From assembly GCA_022450585.1 (NCBI GenBank), contig JAKUPR010000001.1:65671-124366 (forward strand): 58,696 nt of DNA, in the 5' to 3' direction. The notes beneath the pieces were generated by a model. The model was given only the letters and a program-made list of their open reading frames with translations. It was not told the origin of the DNA and did no database searches. This DNA comes from Anaerolineales bacterium (GTDB lineage: Bacteria; Chloroflexota; Anaerolineae; Anaerolineales; UBA11657). The translations under genes were made by a program, and so were the position numbers. Position 1 is the first letter of the stretch, and each line of letters begins with the position of its first letter. This document shows, in pieces, positions 31,183 through 38,942 of this stretch.

Positions 31183-31362
31183 TTAATGTATGCTTGAGTT
31201 GGTATCTTCTGATTGCATCCGAGTGATCGTCTCTGTTTTTTTCAATAATTTGCGCCTGCGGGCTAGTAAGGAGATTGCATAGCCTGCGCTGAGGATGCTA
31301 AAGACAGCATATCCCATTATCATGTAGATTGTAGTGTCAGGTGTGCTTTCTTGTAGAAACAT
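31183..31362 (-). CDS. ccmD: CcmD-like heme exporter accessory protein (59 aa)
   Basis: The gene encodes 59 residues beginning MFLQESTPDTTIYMIMGYA. One transmembrane helix covers about 12-35 and a basic cytoplasmic end RRRKLLKK follows, the size and topology of CcmD. It starts 3 nt after ccmC ends, in the expected CcmABCD order. CcmD helps release the haem-loaded CcmE from CcmABC. Homology is inferred from topology and gene order, because CcmD is poorly conserved in sequence. Confidence 0.75.
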   Translation of the reverse strand: MFLQESTPDTTIYMIMGYAVFSILSAGYAISLLARRRKLLKKTETITRMQSEDTNSSIH

Positions 31363-31365
31363 TAA

Positions 31366-32073
31366 TTAAGTGCTCAATTTATTCAATAGACGTGATTGCA
31401 TAGCGGCAACTTGTACAGTCAATTGTTCAAGTCGTATACGGTGCCATAATAGGGTTACGTATAAAAACGTGAAGGTGAAAAGTGAAAAGAAAAACGCATT
31501 GCGCATTGGAGGGGTCATTTCGAAGTTCCCTTCAGCGGACGGGTCGCTGCTTCCAATAATTACTGGGTGTATTGTGCGCCATATTCGAATTGCGGCAAAA
31601 GTAAGTGGTACACTAACAAACGCTACTATTCCATACACGGCCGCAAAGGTCCGCCTCCGTTGAGGGTTTTCCAGGCTCTGTCTCAGCATCAGGTATGCAG
31701 CGTACAGAAGCCACATAATTGTTGCTGTAGTTAGTCGTGGATCCCATGTCCACCAAGTGTTCCAGATTGGGCGCGCCCATACAGAACCGCTGACGATGTT
31801 CATGCTAGTAAACACTACACCGATTTCAACAGATGACAGGGCAACATGATCCCATTTTAAATTTCTTGTCGCAAGATATAGAATGCTACATATTAGCGTA
31901 ATTAGGAATGCCAATGCGCCTATCCATCCAGAGGCAACGTGGTAATAAAATACTCGTTGTACGGCGCCCATGACAATCTCAAGAGGAGCATAAACAAATA
32001 CCATGTAAATGGAAAGTACTAACATTAGCATGCTGCTAATGGTTAGAATTCGGAGATGTTGATTTGGTTGCAT
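31366..32073 (-). CDS. ccmC: Heme exporter membrane protein CcmC
   Basis: A 235-residue membrane protein with six predicted helices and the WWTWDPRLT tryptophan-rich WWD motif near 107-115, which presents haem to CcmE. It starts 4 nt after ccmB ends. It belongs to a complete cytochrome c maturation cluster of System I. Related CcsA and CcmF also have a WWD motif, but the length and position fit CcmC. Confidence 0.93.
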   Translation of the reverse strand: MQPNQHLRILTISSMLMLVLSIYMVFVYAPLEIVMGAVQRVFYYHVASGWIGALAFLITLICSILYLATRNLKWDHVALSSVEIGVVFTSMNIVSGSVWARPIWNTWWTWDPRLTTATIMWLLYAAYLMLRQSLENPQRRRTFAAVYGIVAFVSVPLTFAAIRIWRTIHPVIIGSSDPSAEGNFEMTPPMRNAFFFSLFTFTFLYVTLLWHRIRLEQLTVQVAAMQSRLLNKLST

Positions 32074-32077
32074 CGAG

Positions 32078-32782
32078 TTATTCCTCTATCAAGTAATCGA
32101 AAGTCATGATTGCTATAGCAAATAGAATTATATCGTATACGACCACCAAATTTAGTGGTCCGGATATATTTCCCAACGCATTGCCCTCCAAAATCCCTGC
32201 GCTAGCTTGTACTGACGCTATTATCACAGGCACTGCAACAGGGAAAAGTAATATGGGAAGCATGATTTCACGAGCTCGAGTATGGATTGCTATGGCCGCC
32301 AACAATGTTCCTACTACAGTGTAACCTAGTGTGCCTAGGACAAGGACTACCAGCAATAGCGGCGTAAATAGGGACATATTGTACAGTAAGCTGAACAGAG
32401 GAACTACGATACTTTCTACAATGATTATAAAAATAAATGTGCTGAGCATCTTGCCAACAAAAAGCGCGCTGCGGTCTATTGGGGCCAGCAGTAATCCATC
32501 TAGTAAATCACGATCCTTTTCCGCTGCAAATGTGCGGTTAAGACCCAGAGTGGCGGCAAATACGAAGGTAACCCAGAGCACGCCGGCGGCTACGTTGTCG
32601 CGCGTAGCCCTGTCTAATTCAAGAGAAAAGTTAAAGATTAAGACTACTAACAAAGAGAAGATGAACATTGCACTAACGATTTCCTTGTGGCGGAGTTCCG
32701 AAGTTAAATCTTTCCACATTATTGCTTGTACTGTGCGCCAGAAACTCGCTTGTGGACGTTGGCTGTTCGCAGGTTTAGGCAT
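32078..32782 (-). CDS. ccmB: Heme exporter membrane protein CcmB
   Basis: CcmB is the membrane-spanning partner of the CcmA ATPase. The 234-residue protein has six hydrophobic helices and the RHKEIVSAMFIFSLLVV stretch near the N-terminus, like E. coli CcmB in size. It overlaps the end of ccmA by 8 nt, and ccmC follows. Together CcmAB power release of holo-CcmE. Confidence 0.92.
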   Translation of the reverse strand: MPKPANSQRPQASFWRTVQAIMWKDLTSELRHKEIVSAMFIFSLLVVLIFNFSLELDRATRDNVAAGVLWVTFVFAATLGLNRTFAAEKDRDLLDGLLLAPIDRSALFVGKMLSTFIFIIIVESIVVPLFSLLYNMSLFTPLLLVVLVLGTLGYTVVGTLLAAIAIHTRAREIMLPILLFPVAVPVIIASVQASAGILEGNALGNISGPLNLVVVYDIILFAIAIMTFDYLIEE

Positions 32783-33473
32783 TTACTATTTCTCTGTATT
32801 TGTCCTCTAGCTGCGTCGGAGTTAATCTGATGCTGCGTGTCTCAAAAGCTATCTGTCCTCTGGAAAGAATCGCTACTCGTTGACTTAACGCTAGTCCCCG
32901 TGCAGAATCATGTGTTGTCATCAGTAGGGTGCATCCAGCGGTGGACACAGAGCGAAGCACATCGTCGAGCATGATTGCCGCATCCTGATCCAAACCGGTG
33001 TAGGGTTCATCTAATATCAATACCTGCGGATGGTGTAAAGTCGCGCGAGCTATTGACAATCTTTGTTGCATTCCGCGTGAGAAAGTGCCCACTAAATCAT
33101 GCCGGTGTGCTGACAAGTTGACTTGAGCTAGGACTGTACTGATTCGTGGCTCAGCTGTTACCAAGCCGTAAAGCCGTGCATAAAAACGCAGATTCTCTTC
33201 AGCGGTCAATTCTACATAAAGCAAGGGCTTGTGGGAGACTACGCCTACCAACTGGCGGATAGCGGATGCGTGGGTTGACAGGTTCAAGCCAGCCACGCTT
33301 ACCTCTCCTGCATCGGGTCGTGATAGCGTAGATACAATTCGTAAGAGCGTTGTTTTGCCGGCCCCATTGGGACCAAGGAGGGCGAGAAAGCCACCTTTTG
33401 GTACACTTAAATTAATATCGCGTAGCACTGGTTTTAGTCCGAATGTTTTTGAAAGCGAGTGGATATTAATCAC
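32775..33473 (-). CDS. ccmA: Heme exporter ATP-binding protein CcmA
   Basis: The 232-residue ABC ATPase has Walker A GPNGAGKTTLL (about 34-44), the signature FSRGMQQRLSIARA and Walker B VLILDEPYTG. Position directly before ccmB and ccmC identifies it as CcmA among ABC ATPases. It uses ATP hydrolysis to free haem-loaded CcmE from CcmCD. E. coli CcmA has about 207 residues, so this one is slightly longer. Confidence 0.93.
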   Translation of the reverse strand: MINIHSLSKTFGLKPVLRDINLSVPKGGFLALLGPNGAGKTTLLRIVSTLSRPDAGEVSVAGLNLSTHASAIRQLVGVVSHKPLLYVELTAEENLRFYARLYGLVTAEPRISTVLAQVNLSAHRHDLVGTFSRGMQQRLSIARATLHHPQVLILDEPYTGLDQDAAIMLDDVLRSVSTAGCTLLMTTHDSARGLALSQRVAILSRGQIAFETRSIRLTPTQLEDKYREIVNA

Positions 33474-33510
33474 AATGTTTATGGATATTTTGAATAATAA
33501 TATTGGTACG

Positions 33511-33666
33511 CTATAGGACGAATAGTTGGTTTGCTGTGATTGATGCCAATCCTATACTTGATTCATCAGCGGTAACTTTTGGTATTTCGGGTGTTAGCCT
33601 ACTACACGGATAGTGATGGGTCATCGTCATGTTGCCGTCAAAGGTGTGTTCAATTGTCAGACTCAT
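33511..33666 (-). CDS. Possible small protein between ccmI-like and ccmA
   Basis: A 51-codon reading frame starts with ATG at 33666, overlapping the ccmI-like stop by 17 nt, and ends 37 nt before ccmA. It would encode MSLTIEHTFDGNMTMTHHYP and onward, with no transmembrane helix and no recognised domain. It fills an otherwise empty same-strand gap in the operon, but it may be noncoding. Confidence 0.25.
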   Translation of the reverse strand: MSLTIEHTFDGNMTMTHHYPCSRLTPEIPKVTADESSIGLASITANQLFVL

Positions 33667-33982
33667 GGTTACTAGTATCTGGCTCGTTGGTAGTAACAGG
33701 TTTTGTGAATCCAGCAGCATCAATCTGTTTGAGTGTCTCAACTCCATTGGCAAGAAGTCGCGCGCGCTCCGACTCATAAACGTCTTGGTCAATTTTTCCG
33801 GTAGAGTGTTCAAAATCTAGGTCGGCTATAGCGGTCAGTATCCTGACGCGGCGTGCTTCTAAGAGATATCTCTCTCTGTTGAAGTCATTCTTCTTCGGGG
33901 TTGGGCGAACAACTGGAAATATTATAAAGATGGCAATAGCCAGAAAAAGTGCCATCGCGAAAATTAGAGAATCCAAATTCAT
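33650..33982 (-). CDS. Short CcmI-like cytochrome c biogenesis protein
   Basis: The 110-residue protein has one N-terminal transmembrane helix (about 5-25) and a charged helical tail. The tail carries ILTAIADLDFEHSTGKID and YESERARLL, the pattern of the membrane-proximal part of CcmI/CycH. It lacks the tetratricopeptide repeat part that captures apocytochrome in full-length CcmI. It follows ccmG and precedes ccmA, consistent with a Ccm role. Confidence 0.65.
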   Translation of the reverse strand: MNLDSLIFAMALFLAIAIFIIFPVVRPTPKKNDFNRERYLLEARRVRILTAIADLDFEHSTGKIDQDVYESERARLLANGVETLKQIDAAGFTKPVTTNEPDTSNHESDN

Positions 33983-33989
33983 TGTTGTT

Positions 33990-34565
33990 CTATTGGTTCA
34001 AAAGTAGGTCCAGAGCGTTAGTCAGATTGTTATATTCTATGGGACCTATGACAGTTCCAGCTATAGTGCCATCCTGAGCAATGATATAGGTCTCTGGCAC
34101 ACCCTTTATTCGATAGTCCTGTGAAATCGATGTACGTATATCTGGCCCATTTGGGTAAGTGACACCCCATTTTTTGAGATAGGCCAAAGCTTCGTTTTCT
34201 GTGTCCACATAGTTTATTCCTAAGAACATTACTCCGTGATTCCTGTACTGGCGCCAGGCTTGTTCGAGGGCGTCGGCTTCTAATTCGCATGGTCCGCACC
34301 ACGAAGCCCAAAAGTTTATTACGATTAGTTGTCCCTTGTGATCAGACAGGGTATAGCTGTCGCCGCCGAAAGTGGTTAACGTGAAGTCAGGCGCTGTGCC
34401 CCTGGACACTGGTCCGAGAGTCGTCTGGTATAGCTTAATGCCTAGCAAGAGCATCAGTGCAGTAAACAGTCCCCAGACAAGGAGCTTTCCCCAGAACATA
34501 CGAGGGATGCGTTCTTTATCGAGTTTAGGGCTAGTATTTCTTAGGGTAGTCTGAGTCATCGCCAC
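33990..34565 (-). CDS. ccmG: Thioredoxin-like thiol-disulfide protein CcmG/ResA
   Basis: This 191-residue membrane-anchored oxidoreductase has a signal-anchor helix at about 25-45 and a thioredoxin fold with NFWASWCGPCELEA. The WCGPC pair reduces the CxxCH cysteines of apocytochrome c outside the membrane. It overlaps ccmH by 10 nt, suggesting coupled translation. ResA or TlpA would be near-synonyms for this role. Confidence 0.9.
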   Translation of the reverse strand: MAMTQTTLRNTSPKLDKERIPRMFWGKLLVWGLFTALMLLLGIKLYQTTLGPVSRGTAPDFTLTTFGGDSYTLSDHKGQLIVINFWASWCGPCELEADALEQAWRQYRNHGVMFLGINYVDTENEALAYLKKWGVTYPNGPDIRTSISQDYRIKGVPETYIIAQDGTIAGTVIGPIEYNNLTNALDLLLNQ

Positions 34566-35032
34566 TGCTCTAGGTCATTCTCCAACTGGCCTATATATTC
34601 TTCCGCTCTCACTTGCTTGGCAATGGACTGCTTGTACATGTGTTTTTTGCGGAATATATTATGGTTCGTACGCAATACTAAAAACCAAGCAATGATAATT
34701 GAAACTGGTGGGAGTAACCAGAACAACATATTGAATCCCTGCGTTGGAGGGTGTGCTAGAACACGGATCCCATAGCGATCGGAAAAATATTGCTTGATTT
34801 GCTCTTCATTCCATCCGTCAGCCAATTTATCACTGATGTCGTCTCTCCACTGAGCACATGCTTTAGTGCCACACACATCCAGGGGTACGTTTTCGCACAC
34901 TGGACAATAGAGTTGCTTCGCTATTGTGTTGACTTCGTCATCGCTTGGTTGAGCATCCTGTGCCGAGACTTCTCCAAAACAATAGAAGATAAGCAGTGAA
35001 GTGATTCCTGTACTTGCTAATAGTCTAAACAT
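34556..35032 (-). CDS. ccmH: Cytochrome c biogenesis protein CcmH
   Basis: CcmH is a membrane thiol protein of the apocytochrome reduction step. The 158-residue protein has a signal helix, then LYCPVC near 44-49, a variant of the LRCxxC motif, and CGTKACAQWRDDI. A transmembrane helix (about 104-124) completes it. CcmG overlaps its stop. Only the small CcmH part is present; the CcmI part is in a separate short gene. Confidence 0.9.
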   Translation of the reverse strand: MFRLLASTGITSLLIFYCFGEVSAQDAQPSDDEVNTIAKQLYCPVCENVPLDVCGTKACAQWRDDISDKLADGWNEEQIKQYFSDRYGIRVLAHPPTQGFNMLFWLLPPVSIIIAWFLVLRTNHNIFRKKHMYKQSIAKQVRAEEYIGQLENDLEQWR

Positions 35033-35072: not shown

Positions 35073-37157
35073 TCACAAAACTATATCTGGAGGATTGACG
35101 GAAAGCGATGTTGACTGTCGGTAGAGAGACGGTCCGCGATTTGGCCAAGCGGCTACAAGTGTCCCAAGAATAAATATAAATCCACCGAACCATAGCCAGT
35201 TCATAAGCGGATTCAAATAAATCTTGAATGTTGCGCTCTCTGTGCCAATCGGCTTCCAGTCAACTAGCAGTACATAGAAATCTCCCTCTAGGGTACTGTA
35301 TAAGCCTGGAATAGTCATAGGCTGCTGGCTGTCTACATAGAAATCGCGTCGCGGATAAAGTTCTGCTACAAATTTGTCGTCCTTGTAAACGCTGACTATG
35401 GCTCGTGTAACCCGGCGGTTGTCTTCGGTATCGAATTCTTCTATTTTGTTGTAGATCATGACATAATTCTCGATGTTAATCTGTTCTCCATATGCGAGAG
35501 TACCCTGTGTCTCAGCCTGGAACATCTCTATACCAATGATACCTACTGCCATGAATATCACGCCCAAATGGATGACGTAGCCACCATAACGACGCCGATT
35601 TCTAGCAATCATATTCCATAGTGAGCTGAGGAGATTACCGCCAGTCGCTTTTCTGCGTGCGCTGGCACCGCGATAAAACTCATATAGGGTAACGCACAAC
35701 ACGAAAGCTGCAAGCCACAAGCTTAGTAGGGCCACTGCATTTGTGGTTCCTGTGGTCAGAGCGTACACTGGGAAGATTAGGGAAAATACAGTTGGTTTCC
35801 AAATTATTTTCCCGAGTCGTCTGGCTGTGGTTACTCGCCATGCAGTCAGTGGGGCTATTCCCATTAGTAATAGGAGCGCGGCGAATTGAGGTCCAGTGGT
35901 GCGCTCGTAGAATGGTGGTCCCACGGTCACTTTCTGTCCCGTGACCAATTCAGAGATAATCGGATAAATGACACCCCAGAAGCATGCCAATAGTATTCCC
36001 ATGAATAGCAGATTGTTGAGTAAGAAAAGACCTTCTCTTGAAAGCCAACTGGTAAGGATATTTTCGCTATCTAGGCGATTCCATCCCTTAAAGAGGAGCG
36101 TTAATGATATTGTAAATGTGATACCTATGAAAACAAAGAATAGTGGACCGATGGCGCTCAGTGCGAATGCGTGGACTGAGGAAAGAACCCCCGAGCGGGT
36201 AAGAAAGGTGCCGAAAATGACCAGTGCATAGGTGAGTATGATTAGAATCATATTCCATCGCTTAAACATTCCGAGTTTTTCTTGAATCATAACTGAGTGC
36301 AGAAAAGCGGTACCAGTTAGCCAGGGCATGAAGGCGGCGATTTCTACAGGATCCCATCCCCAATATCCTCCCCATCCTAATACATCGTACGCCCAACGAC
36401 TGCCCAGGAGCAGGCCGAGTGATAGAAACAACCAGGCAATCAGCGTCCACCGGCGTGTTACACGAATCCAGAGATTATCAGTACGACCAATTGCAAGCGC
36501 TGCGATGGCAAAGCTATAGGGGACAACAAATCCGACAAATCCCAAGTAGAGCATAGGTGGATGGATAATCATTCCCGGGTGGCGCAGTAGCGGATTCAAA
36601 CCTTGGCCGTCGTTAGGGACGAAAGGTTTGGCTCCCGGTGGGGCAAGGAATGATGCTTGGATGTGTCCAGACTGATCTATCCATAGTTTGGTAAAAGGGT
36701 TTTCTACAAATACATTCAGGCCAATAAAGAAAGCTAGTGTGGTCATCGTGGAAGCTATTACAAAGGGTTGCATGTCGCGCTCGTTGTGCCAATTGCGAAG
36801 CATTACTAGGGCGGTGTATGTAGACATTAGCCATGCCCAGAATAGTAGGCTCCCAGCTTGGCCGCCCCAGAGCGCGGTGGCCTTTAGATACCATGGCATT
36901 GCATGGCTAGAAACTCTTGCCACGTATTCGATTTCAAAACGCTCATTTATCAGTAAGTAGGTCATACAGAAACACGCAAATGTTAGCAGGGGCCATACTG
37001 CAATGGCTGCGTTACGTGCGGAATCTACCCATTTCAATCGGTCTGACCGTGCGACAGACAGGGAGACCGTCGCAGCATATATGGCGCAGAGCAATGCTAG
37101 CATCATGGCCGTGAAACCAAAATCTGCAAGCGAATATTTGGAGAGTAAGTGGGTCAC
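35073..37157 (-). CDS. ccmF: Heme lyase CcmF
   Basis: CcmF, with CcmH, attaches haem to the CxxCH motif of apocytochrome c. The 694-residue polytopic protein carries ALWGGQAGSLLFWAWL near 95-110 and the WWD-like segment LGWGGYWGWDPVEIAAF. It has about 14-15 hydrophobic helices and a periplasmic beta domain near the end. The start is GTG. It follows ccmE by 72 nt and precedes ccmH. Confidence 0.95.
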   Translation of the reverse strand: MTHLLSKYSLADFGFTAMMLALLCAIYAATVSLSVARSDRLKWVDSARNAAIAVWPLLTFACFCMTYLLINERFEIEYVARVSSHAMPWYLKATALWGGQAGSLLFWAWLMSTYTALVMLRNWHNERDMQPFVIASTMTTLAFFIGLNVFVENPFTKLWIDQSGHIQASFLAPPGAKPFVPNDGQGLNPLLRHPGMIIHPPMLYLGFVGFVVPYSFAIAALAIGRTDNLWIRVTRRWTLIAWLFLSLGLLLGSRWAYDVLGWGGYWGWDPVEIAAFMPWLTGTAFLHSVMIQEKLGMFKRWNMILIILTYALVIFGTFLTRSGVLSSVHAFALSAIGPLFFVFIGITFTISLTLLFKGWNRLDSENILTSWLSREGLFLLNNLLFMGILLACFWGVIYPIISELVTGQKVTVGPPFYERTTGPQFAALLLLMGIAPLTAWRVTTARRLGKIIWKPTVFSLIFPVYALTTGTTNAVALLSLWLAAFVLCVTLYEFYRGASARRKATGGNLLSSLWNMIARNRRRYGGYVIHLGVIFMAVGIIGIEMFQAETQGTLAYGEQINIENYVMIYNKIEEFDTEDNRRVTRAIVSVYKDDKFVAELYPRRDFYVDSQQPMTIPGLYSTLEGDFYVLLVDWKPIGTESATFKIYLNPLMNWLWFGGFIFILGTLVAAWPNRGPSLYRQSTSLSVNPPDIVL

Positions 37158-37229: not shown

Positions 37230-37745
37230 TCATCCAGCGACCTGTTCGGGTAATTCATCGTCATATTTTGTGGGACATTTGAGCAGTAGCGTGTCAGCAG
37301 CAAAAGTGCCGTTCTCTGTTAGATACCCATCCATTATAGCTTGAGCTTCGTTTCGCATTAGGTCGGGCATTGGTCCATAGTGAATCACGTCTATTCGTGC
37401 AGTATTAGGGTCAGCAACTGCTTGATGGAGTACTTTTGCGAGGCCTCCCTGTGCATTCACCTCTGTCTGATCTCCGGGTACATTAGCGATTGTGAAACGC
37501 AATTCCATCGAGTCTGGGTCATACGTAATACTCTTGCCCAATACTGCGCCGGAAATGCGAACGTTCTGGCCGATCGCTGTTGCGCCCTTTGATTTTAATT
37601 CATCCACGCTGTAGAAATAGTGGCTTGTGCTCTGGGTGGTGCTTACAATCAGATAGAGGATTGCAACAGCGATAAGGATGCCCCCAAGGATGAATTTTTT
37701 TCGTTGTGGTTTTGGATTAATGAGAGTGCTATTGACTGATGTCAT
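37230..37745 (-). CDS. ccmE: Heme chaperone CcmE, Cys-type
   Basis: CcmE carries haem from CcmC to CcmF. The 171-residue protein has an N-terminal membrane anchor (about 20-40) and the OB-fold. Where E. coli CcmE has its haem-binding H-x3-Y, this protein has LLLKCPTKYDDE, giving a C-x3-Y motif. That variant is known from Desulfovibrio and archaeal CcmE. The ATG at 37745 has GAGAGG upstream and was preferred over an ATG 24 nt earlier. It begins the Ccm operon downstream of the bc genes. Confidence 0.92.
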   Translation of the reverse strand: MTSVNSTLINPKPQRKKFILGGILIAVAILYLIVSTTQSTSHYFYSVDELKSKGATAIGQNVRISGAVLGKSITYDPDSMELRFTIANVPGDQTEVNAQGGLAKVLHQAVADPNTARIDVIHYGPMPDLMRNEAQAIMDGYLTENGTFAADTLLLKCPTKYDDELPEQVAG

Positions 37746-38090
37746 GGCATCCTCTCTCTTTTTCGGCATGTTTCATGGTCGAGTTCCACCGTAATTTTAC
37801 CTGATGAATCTTGGGAGGAGTGGCTCCAAATAAATTGCCTAACGAAACTCAGTTCTCGAATGTAATAACAATCATATATAACATGAGTGTGTTAGGCGGT
37901 AAAAAACTTCGGGTAAGTGGCTAACGAATCGTCGGGTTTAGAGAGCTGTTGGTTGTTCGTGCAGAGGATGGTATTTGCCCCTAAATCGTGACTTACCGTA
38001 GTAGACTGTGAAAGAAATCCATGCATTCGTTGCCAGGCGAACCCTGGCGTTGAACTTCCTGGGATTCTTTCAGTAGCGCTTGGTTACAGA
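37746..38090. other. Intergenic region before ccmE with branched inverted repeat
   Basis: No gene was seen. A nested inverted repeat is present: outer arms GAAAGAAATCC (38010-38020) and GGATTCTTTC (38062-38071) with one bulge, and an inner stem GCCAGG/CCTGGC (38032-38037, 38043-38048). It separates the cytochrome bc genes from the ccm genes. No T tract follows on either strand. Confidence 0.4.
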
Positions 38091-38942
38091 TTACTTGAGC
38101 GTTACCAGGTAAGCTATGAGGTCAGCCAGATCCTGTTTGCTCAACGTCTCACCGTATGTCATTACCATAGTTGAGGGTGGATACCCGTCAACAACAAACG
38201 CATCTGGCAGGACAATTGATTCGCGCAGATACTGCTCTGAGTTGGTAGCGGTACCTGTGTAATTTGTTTCTTCAATACGGGCGGAGGCACGTGTCCCGAT
38301 ACCTTCCCCATTGGGGTCAGCTTCAGCTAACCATGCTGGACCTACATCTGTCTGTACGTGGCAGGCTACACATCCTAGAGTGGTCGTCAACTCCTCGCCA
38401 GCCTGGGCGTCTCCGTTTGGAAGCACGGGTGTGCTTAAGTCTGTACCTACTGGGTCGATAGGGTTAGTGACTACCTTCTGTACCGTTGGGGCAATGCCGA
38501 GTTCGTATGCTTCTCCCCAGTTGAGGACAAAATTTGTTAAGTCTCGTACCTGGTCTATTCTCAATGGACCACCAAACTCTTGACTCCATGTAGGCATTCT
38601 TTGTGGATAGGTTGTGCCGGCAGAAGGTACAGGACGTCCGCCTGCGATTGTAGAGTAGAGGAAATCGTGAAGGGTGCCGGCCCAGCCGACCTCGGCGACC
38701 CGCGTACCATCAAACATTTCTTGAGTGTTCAAGCCTGGTGCGAGTCCGGGTAGTCCTTGTCCTTGCGGGCCGTGGCATCGTGTGCAATTGTTTTCAAAGA
38801 GGGCGGCTCCGGCCTCTATGGAACGACCCTCGAATCCTTCCTCTGCTTCGGCCATGCGAGCGGGTTCATTAATTAGCCAAAAGGCGGTTATAATCGAGGT
38901 GAGGACTACGGCAAGGGTGCCAATGGCGGTTCGCCAGGTCAT
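38091..38942 (-). CDS. Membrane-anchored diheme cytochrome c of the bc complex
   Basis: The 283-residue protein has an N-terminal membrane helix (about 5-25) and two cytochrome c domains with CTRCH (C53-H57) and CVACH (about 191-195). Candidate methionine ligands are in RMPTW and TMVMTYG. It follows cytochrome b by 3 nt and Rieske lies upstream of both, so it is the electron-output subunit. Such diheme c replaces cytochrome c1 in Actinobacteria-type complexes and other lineages. It would be matured by the adjacent Ccm proteins. Confidence 0.88.
   Translation of the reverse strand: MTWRTAIGTLAVVLTSIITAFWLINEPARMAEAEEGFEGRSIEAGAALFENNCTRCHGPQGQGLPGLAPGLNTQEMFDGTRVAEVGWAGTLHDFLYSTIAGGRPVPSAGTTYPQRMPTWSQEFGGPLRIDQVRDLTNFVLNWGEAYELGIAPTVQKVVTNPIDPVGTDLSTPVLPNGDAQAGEELTTTLGCVACHVQTDVGPAWLAEADPNGEGIGTRASARIEETNYTGTATNSEQYLRESIVLPDAFVVDGYPPSTMVMTYGETLSKQDLADLIAYLVTLK

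Follow-up and report, generated by a model that had tools for sequence, protein, structure and literature searches.

What does it mean for cytochrome c maturation when the haem chaperone CcmE carries a cysteine in place of the haem-binding histidine, and how unusual is this in an operon that also encodes CcmH? The question is raised by a Ccm locus in a 58,696-nucleotide stretch of a contig from a bacterium of the order Anaerolineales, phylum Chloroflexota (the whole stretch is referred to below as the window). A first-pass annotation had described a cysteine-type CcmE within a complete System I operon and had treated the combination as special. Replacement of His by Cys in CcmE is the mark of System I*, which occurs in archaea and some bacteria, most of them delta-proteobacteria and others among Chloroflexi and Firmicutes (PMC3601427, FEBS J 2011; this source, PMC3884852 and PMC9084895 are cited throughout from excerpts). 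Of the System I* CcmE sequences in that source, 25 of 36 read CPSKY and four have Phe for Tyr; about a third of the bacteria with a cysteine-type CcmE possess CcmH, the absence of which is not characteristic (PMC3601427).

The haem site of CcmE

The ccmE gene is located on the minus strand at 37230..37769, encodes 179 amino acids from the first ATG, and scores 77.7 bits with Pfam PF03100, whose cut-off is 24.6 (E 9.2e-22). The plus-strand frame over 37230-37745 is closed by stops. A second ATG at 37745 would give a protein of 171 residues (37230-37745), and we consider it the likelier start because AGAGAGG, five bases 5' of it, forms a better ribosome site than that of the first ATG. The codons of C165-P-T-K-Y169 (37263..37277, minus strand) correspond in position to E. 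coli H130-x3-Y134. In HMMER alignments to E. coli CcmE (8ce8_E and 1sr3_A), C165 (C157 from the second start) fell on the KHDENY His, and a four-sequence profile placed the KCP of the window protein on that of 2kct_A (E 5.7e-4), the CcmE of Desulfovibrio vulgaris (PMC3884852). The reading of the site as C-x3-Y (CPTKY) instead of H-x3-Y, made initially from the sequence, was thus confirmed by alignment to E. coli His130: Cys-x3-Tyr replaces His-x3-Tyr as in System I*, and the haem-binding His of canonical System I is absent. The protein shares its Cys-Pro haem site with the System I* CcmE of Desulfovibrio desulfuricans and D. vulgaris (2KCT). With E. coli CcmE (1SR3, 8CE8) it shares the fold, the transmembrane anchor and the positions of the haem residue and the Tyr, but His130 is followed by Asp in E. 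coli and the Cys by Pro in the window.

An AlphaFold2 model built from four sequences had a mean pLDDT of 74.7, with blocks of residues 51-160 at 85-97. It predicts an N-terminal transmembrane helix (24-45, of low pLDDT) and the strands of a barrel, as expected of an anchored OB fold; the last modelled strand (156-164) stops directly before C165, and pLDDT drops below 50 over residues 170-179. VIA-align gave the model Z scores of 10.9 to 1sr3 (97 residues), 10.5 to 8ce8 and 10.3 to 1j6q. Unrelated OB folds scored as high as CcmE structures in the fold search, one of them higher, which means that CcmE cannot be recognised by its fold alone. The same OB fold is reported for the D. vulgaris protein (PMC3884852) and predicted for that of the window. 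About 24 residues at 100-123 form an insert relative to E. coli and were modelled as two helices; residues 101-119 of it are encoded at 37413-37469. In the order, those CcmE-model matches that were recovered in one piece are 366 bases long, while most of the other matches listed cover about 290.

Two other accounts were rejected: a sequencing error or pseudogene, given the intact frame and the Cys in all 34 of the order and class loci described below, and a second, His-bearing CcmE, since PF03100 has no further match in the window's genome (130 contigs). System II (CcsBA) as the real pathway was likewise rejected, since ResB (PF05140) had no match in the genome. As the genome is 87.5% complete, the absence of a second CcmE or of System II is not certain.

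The operon and its neighbours

Read from ccmE, the minus-strand gene order is ccmE-F-H-G-I-A-B-C-D, beside a bc complex. The haem lyase gene ccmF (35073..37157, 694 aa; Pfam CcmF_C E 9.1e-54, Cytochrom_C_asm E 1.3e-38) is followed by ccmH (34556..35032, 158 aa; Pfam PF03918 E 7.6e-20), whose product has a four-cysteine form, CPVCENVPLDVCGTKAC, recognised in alignments. Next are a ccmG or ResA-like thioredoxin gene with WCGPC (33990..34565, 191 aa; Pfam AhpC-TSA E 1.4e-22, the ResA model being the best match, below its cut-off) and a short CcmI-like gene (33650..33982, 110 aa), named by profile comparison. The ABC ATPase gene ccmA (32775..33473, 232 aa) scores 142.4 bits with TIGR01189 against a cut-off of 131.6, ccmB (32078..32782, 234 aa) matches Pfam CcmB (E 1.4e-31), and ccmC (31366..32073, 235 aa) matches Cytochrom_C_asm (E 2.1e-26), with TIGR01191 as the best, below-cut-off NCBI model. 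The last reading frame, ccmD-like (31183..31362, 59 aa), owes its name to its length, its place, one apparent transmembrane stretch and profile matches in relatives; a profile grown from it matched a frame in 69 of 104 stretches, adjoining ccmC in many of the gene strings.

CcmA, B, C, F, H and a CcmG-like thioredoxin, as in canonical System I, are therefore present in one operon, and the presence of CcmH (PF03918) separates it from System I* in its original description, which had no such protein. A CcmI with a TPR domain was not found in the operon, which holds only the 110-residue CcmI-like protein, without a Pfam or NCBIfam match. The D. desulfuricans operon lacks CcmH and CcmG (PMC3601427), whereas the window operon has both; archaea lack CcmD, CcmH and CcmI (PMC9084895), whereas the window carries ccmH together with short genes resembling ccmD and ccmI. 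A similar order, E-F-H-I1-I2-A-B-C, was seen with a CPSKY CcmE on plasmid p1 of the Gram-positive Cytobacillus firmus (NZ_CP107028.1, locus L166), although its CcmH is without CxxC, no ccmG lies between H and I1, and I2 has no counterpart in the window.

Whether the operon is complete depends on the standard applied. By the E. coli list it is full, in keeping with the first-pass annotation; by the standard of its own order it is not, because a second gene with a CcmI-like tail, present in 18 of the 23 order loci, is absent, and only a 176-bp gap (33474-33649) separates the CcmI-like gene from ccmA. Over the wider set (plasmid L166 included), 49 of the 92 Cys-type loci and one of the 32 His-type loci have a larger stop-to-stop frame with such a tail, and in 38 of the 49 Cys-type loci it adjoins ccmA or ccmB. 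Copies lying between the CcmI-like gene and ccmA are those at L068:13640-15871, L074:11282-13168 and L166:11214-12143, and the copies inspected have an apparent transmembrane stretch before the tail. Those of the order members L068 and L074 contain cytochrome c domains; that of L004 has no CxxCH. When the L074 copy was searched against the window's genome, just its cytochrome c part was matched, by two other frames, the first of which is a different membrane protein. The CcmI-like protein of the window also differs from its order relatives, lacking the C-terminal zinc ribbon found in L068 (by Pfam), L074, L081 and L004.

Directly upstream of ccmE, on the same strand, a dihaem c-type cytochrome is encoded (38091..38942; Pfam Cytochrom_C, two CxxCH); cytochrome b, named from its sequence, and a Rieske protein are also encoded upstream on this strand. 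The dihaem cytochrome is a likely substrate of the Ccm machinery. Elsewhere in the genome, contig 38 carries one CcdA/DsbD-type gene and then a second ResA-like gene.

Conservation of the cysteine and the handling of haem

Among 301 genomes drawn from the phylum Chloroflexota, the window's included, CcmE was found in 207, CcmH in 158 and both in 154. The haem site was read in 126 CcmE proteins from 125 loci, two of them plasmid records; the loci were hand-picked, priority being given to members of the order and class, with most remaining families represented by at least one locus, and counts by locus are therefore not a random sample. The residue at the site was Cys in 93 proteins and His in 33. 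Counted by genome (115, with the window's), 83 had Cys only, 31 His only and one both. CcmH was present in 69 of the 83 Cys-only genomes, with no match in the other 14, in 31/31 His-only genomes and in the single genome with both types; in the sampled Chloroflexota a cysteine-type CcmE usually co-occurs with CcmH. The supposed peculiarity of such a CcmE in a full pathway was accordingly not upheld, the combination being both common here and already described (PMC3601427).

Conservation of the Cys among close relatives had been named as a test of the variant. Alignment showed Cys in 23/23 loci of the order (22 genomes) and 11/11 of the rest of the class, 34/34 together (class genome G037, with a CcmE fragment lacking the site, was left unscored), so the relatives do not refute it. 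Within the order, CcmH accompanies CcmE in 21 of 23 genomes, the window's among them; G200 and G290 are without it. The variant in the window is thus genuine and well conserved; it adds a member to System I* and is nothing out of the ordinary for its phylum. A contig search of relatives gave three Ccm loci and a plasmid search four records, two of which were read. In family f15, two adjacent Cys-type CcmE genes (CPSKY with CPHSY or CPHRY) were seen at L099 and L006 (G002) and at L007 (G015).

The most probable reading, to which we give roughly 85%, is that the window protein works as a System I* OB-fold chaperone that would take haem from CcmABCD onto Cys-x3-Tyr, most likely as a thioether, and hand it to CcmF-CcmH. 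Family, motif position, conservation and gene set are those observed above and the fold is that of the model, while the covalent bond, the transfer and the partners are argued from homologues. By this analogy, the membrane-anchored protein would receive haem at the motif, C165 would most likely bond to a haem vinyl, forming the thioether that the literature infers for the Desulfovibrio protein, and Tyr169 would be a ligand of the haem iron. CcmE would then pass its haem to the CcmF-CcmH synthase: there CcmH would present apocytochrome c, CcmF would let the Cys-haem bond give way to those that join haem to the apocytochrome, and CcmG with the CcdA-type protein of contig 38 would keep thiols reduced; the cytochrome c of the neighbouring bc complex and others are likely substrates. 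In D. desulfuricans the Cys-type CcmE binds haem covalently, and its operon yields holocytochrome in E. coli (PMC3601427). Methanosarcina acetivorans CcmE has the same CxxxY site, of which the cysteine, C120, is required for haem on the protein (PMC9084895). Further support comes from the modelled place of C165 where the barrel ends, from the CcdA-type gene with the second ResA-like gene behind it, and from the lack of a ResB match. A point against the reading is the motif Tyr, which is not universal: the fifth residue in the 93 Cys-type rows is Tyr in 62, Phe in 26, Leu in four and Gln in one.

The residue after the Cys bears on a second explanation, in which the Cys would act as an axial ligand of the haem iron, as in Cys-Pro regulatory motifs, and haem would be handed over without any change of covalent bonds. 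Cys-Pro dipeptides are haem-binding motifs in other proteins. The residue after the haem-site Cys is Pro in 95% of the 92 Cys-type rows; in the two His-type sets, of 19 and 13 rows, Pro takes the corresponding place in 0% and 8%. D. vulgaris CcmE holds ferric haem non-covalently through C127 (PMC3884852). Since this is the same Cys, covalency of the Cys-haem bond may not be general. Set against axial ligation are the covalent haem of the D. desulfuricans protein (PMC3601427) and the haem staining of M. acetivorans CcmE (PMC9084895), and we regard it as unlikely for the window protein.

CcmH forms and the mixing of cysteine and histidine in Chloroflexota

Forms of CcmH were tallied in 123 phylum loci (32 His-type, 91 Cys-type; plasmid records L166 and L167 were set aside, and L003, whose contig is of the same length as that of L074, lay outside the set), in which the lack of CcmH from a stretch may reflect the end of a contig. 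CcmH was present in 28 of the 32 His-type loci, with a plain CxxC pair in 28/28. Among the 91 Cys-type loci, 58 had CcmH: 31 of four-cysteine form, that of the window among them, 20 plain, six with CxCGC and one without CxxC. Most members of the window's order have CPVCENxPLDVCxTxAC or something close to it. The confinement of variant CcmH (four-cysteine and others) to Cys-type loci, 38/58 against 0/28, would suit a third explanation, in which the CcmE Cys mainly partners a thiol chain of CcmG and four-cysteine CcmH, haem being bound at some other place in CcmE. This we consider very improbable: the Cys sits exactly at the haem site, 20 Cys-type loci have the plain two-cysteine CcmH, 14 of the 83 Cys-only genomes are without a CcmH match, and the trait changes on the tree are too few for a test of the link. 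When CcmE type and CcmH form were compared by a sign test on the CcmF tree, there were three independent pairs on starred branches and six on all branches, and with three it cannot reach significance; the pattern can be explained by shared ancestry.

The CcmF tree comprised 87 rows (63 Cys, 24 His) and was unrooted; it excludes L086 and L167, which are long or foreign, 19 sequences nearly identical to others, and any locus whose CcmF stretch did not exceed 350 aa. CcmE type requires five changes on it, three of them forced by starred branches, and a single clade of all His-type rows was rejected (p-AU 0.00036, with the His group defined by residue and the test run after the tree had been seen). 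A large His clade holds HDExY, HSSxY and similar motifs, and rows with HGPEF, HGPTF, HDARF and HPPEF sit among mostly CPSKF neighbours. These nested His loci are L102, L128, L120, L106, L134 and L168-L175, and their Cys neighbours L140, L146 and L110; L120 and L106 stand beside L146 and L140 at a fork with a support of 92, not starred. HGP(E/D)F occurs in 7/7 loci of family f22 and 2/2 of f35, and family f14 has HDARF and HDASF. In a CcmE tree made free of the motif, built on few columns and with many of its forks left open, the nested His rows again fell outside the large His clade, at weak forks; bootstraps required three to four type changes, a single origin appeared in 0/200, and starred branches force one change. 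Cys- and His-type CcmE are therefore mixed in Chloroflexota, and on the CcmF tree the His-type rows do not form a single clade. One genome, G225, has two Ccm loci (L149 and L148), one with a Cys-type and one with a His-type CcmE.

Columns that track CcmE type, at thresholds and with a nested-His set both picked after the trees had been seen, were none in CcmC, two weak ones in CcmF and, in CcmE, the Cys/His position, the next residue and three weaker ones. The listings from searches of open-licence literature showed no report of four-cysteine CcmH or of Cys/His switching. The mixing of the two types, the variation of CcmH and the second CcmI-tailed gene seem less documented than Cys-type CcmE itself; with the window, a known variant gains one more example, and what interest remains lies mostly in these comparative by-products.

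A broader scenario, which we put forward tentatively and hold to be possible though doubtful, is that the haem residue of CcmE changed repeatedly from one to the other of Cys and His within Chloroflexota with the other machinery kept, and that the Cys-type freed the redox site of CcmH to vary (four Cys, CxCGC or none), giving a division of labour among thiols unlike that of E. coli, with the window as one such reworked form. If the residue was switched with the other machinery kept, few changes beyond CcmE may be needed. Cys and His are summed up as not interchangeable for three CcmE proteins (PMC9084895): single swaps fail, and whether the archaeal Cys reflects constraint or history is left open there. 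The natural Cys/His neighbours of Chloroflexota could reveal what a working switch of CcmE requires.
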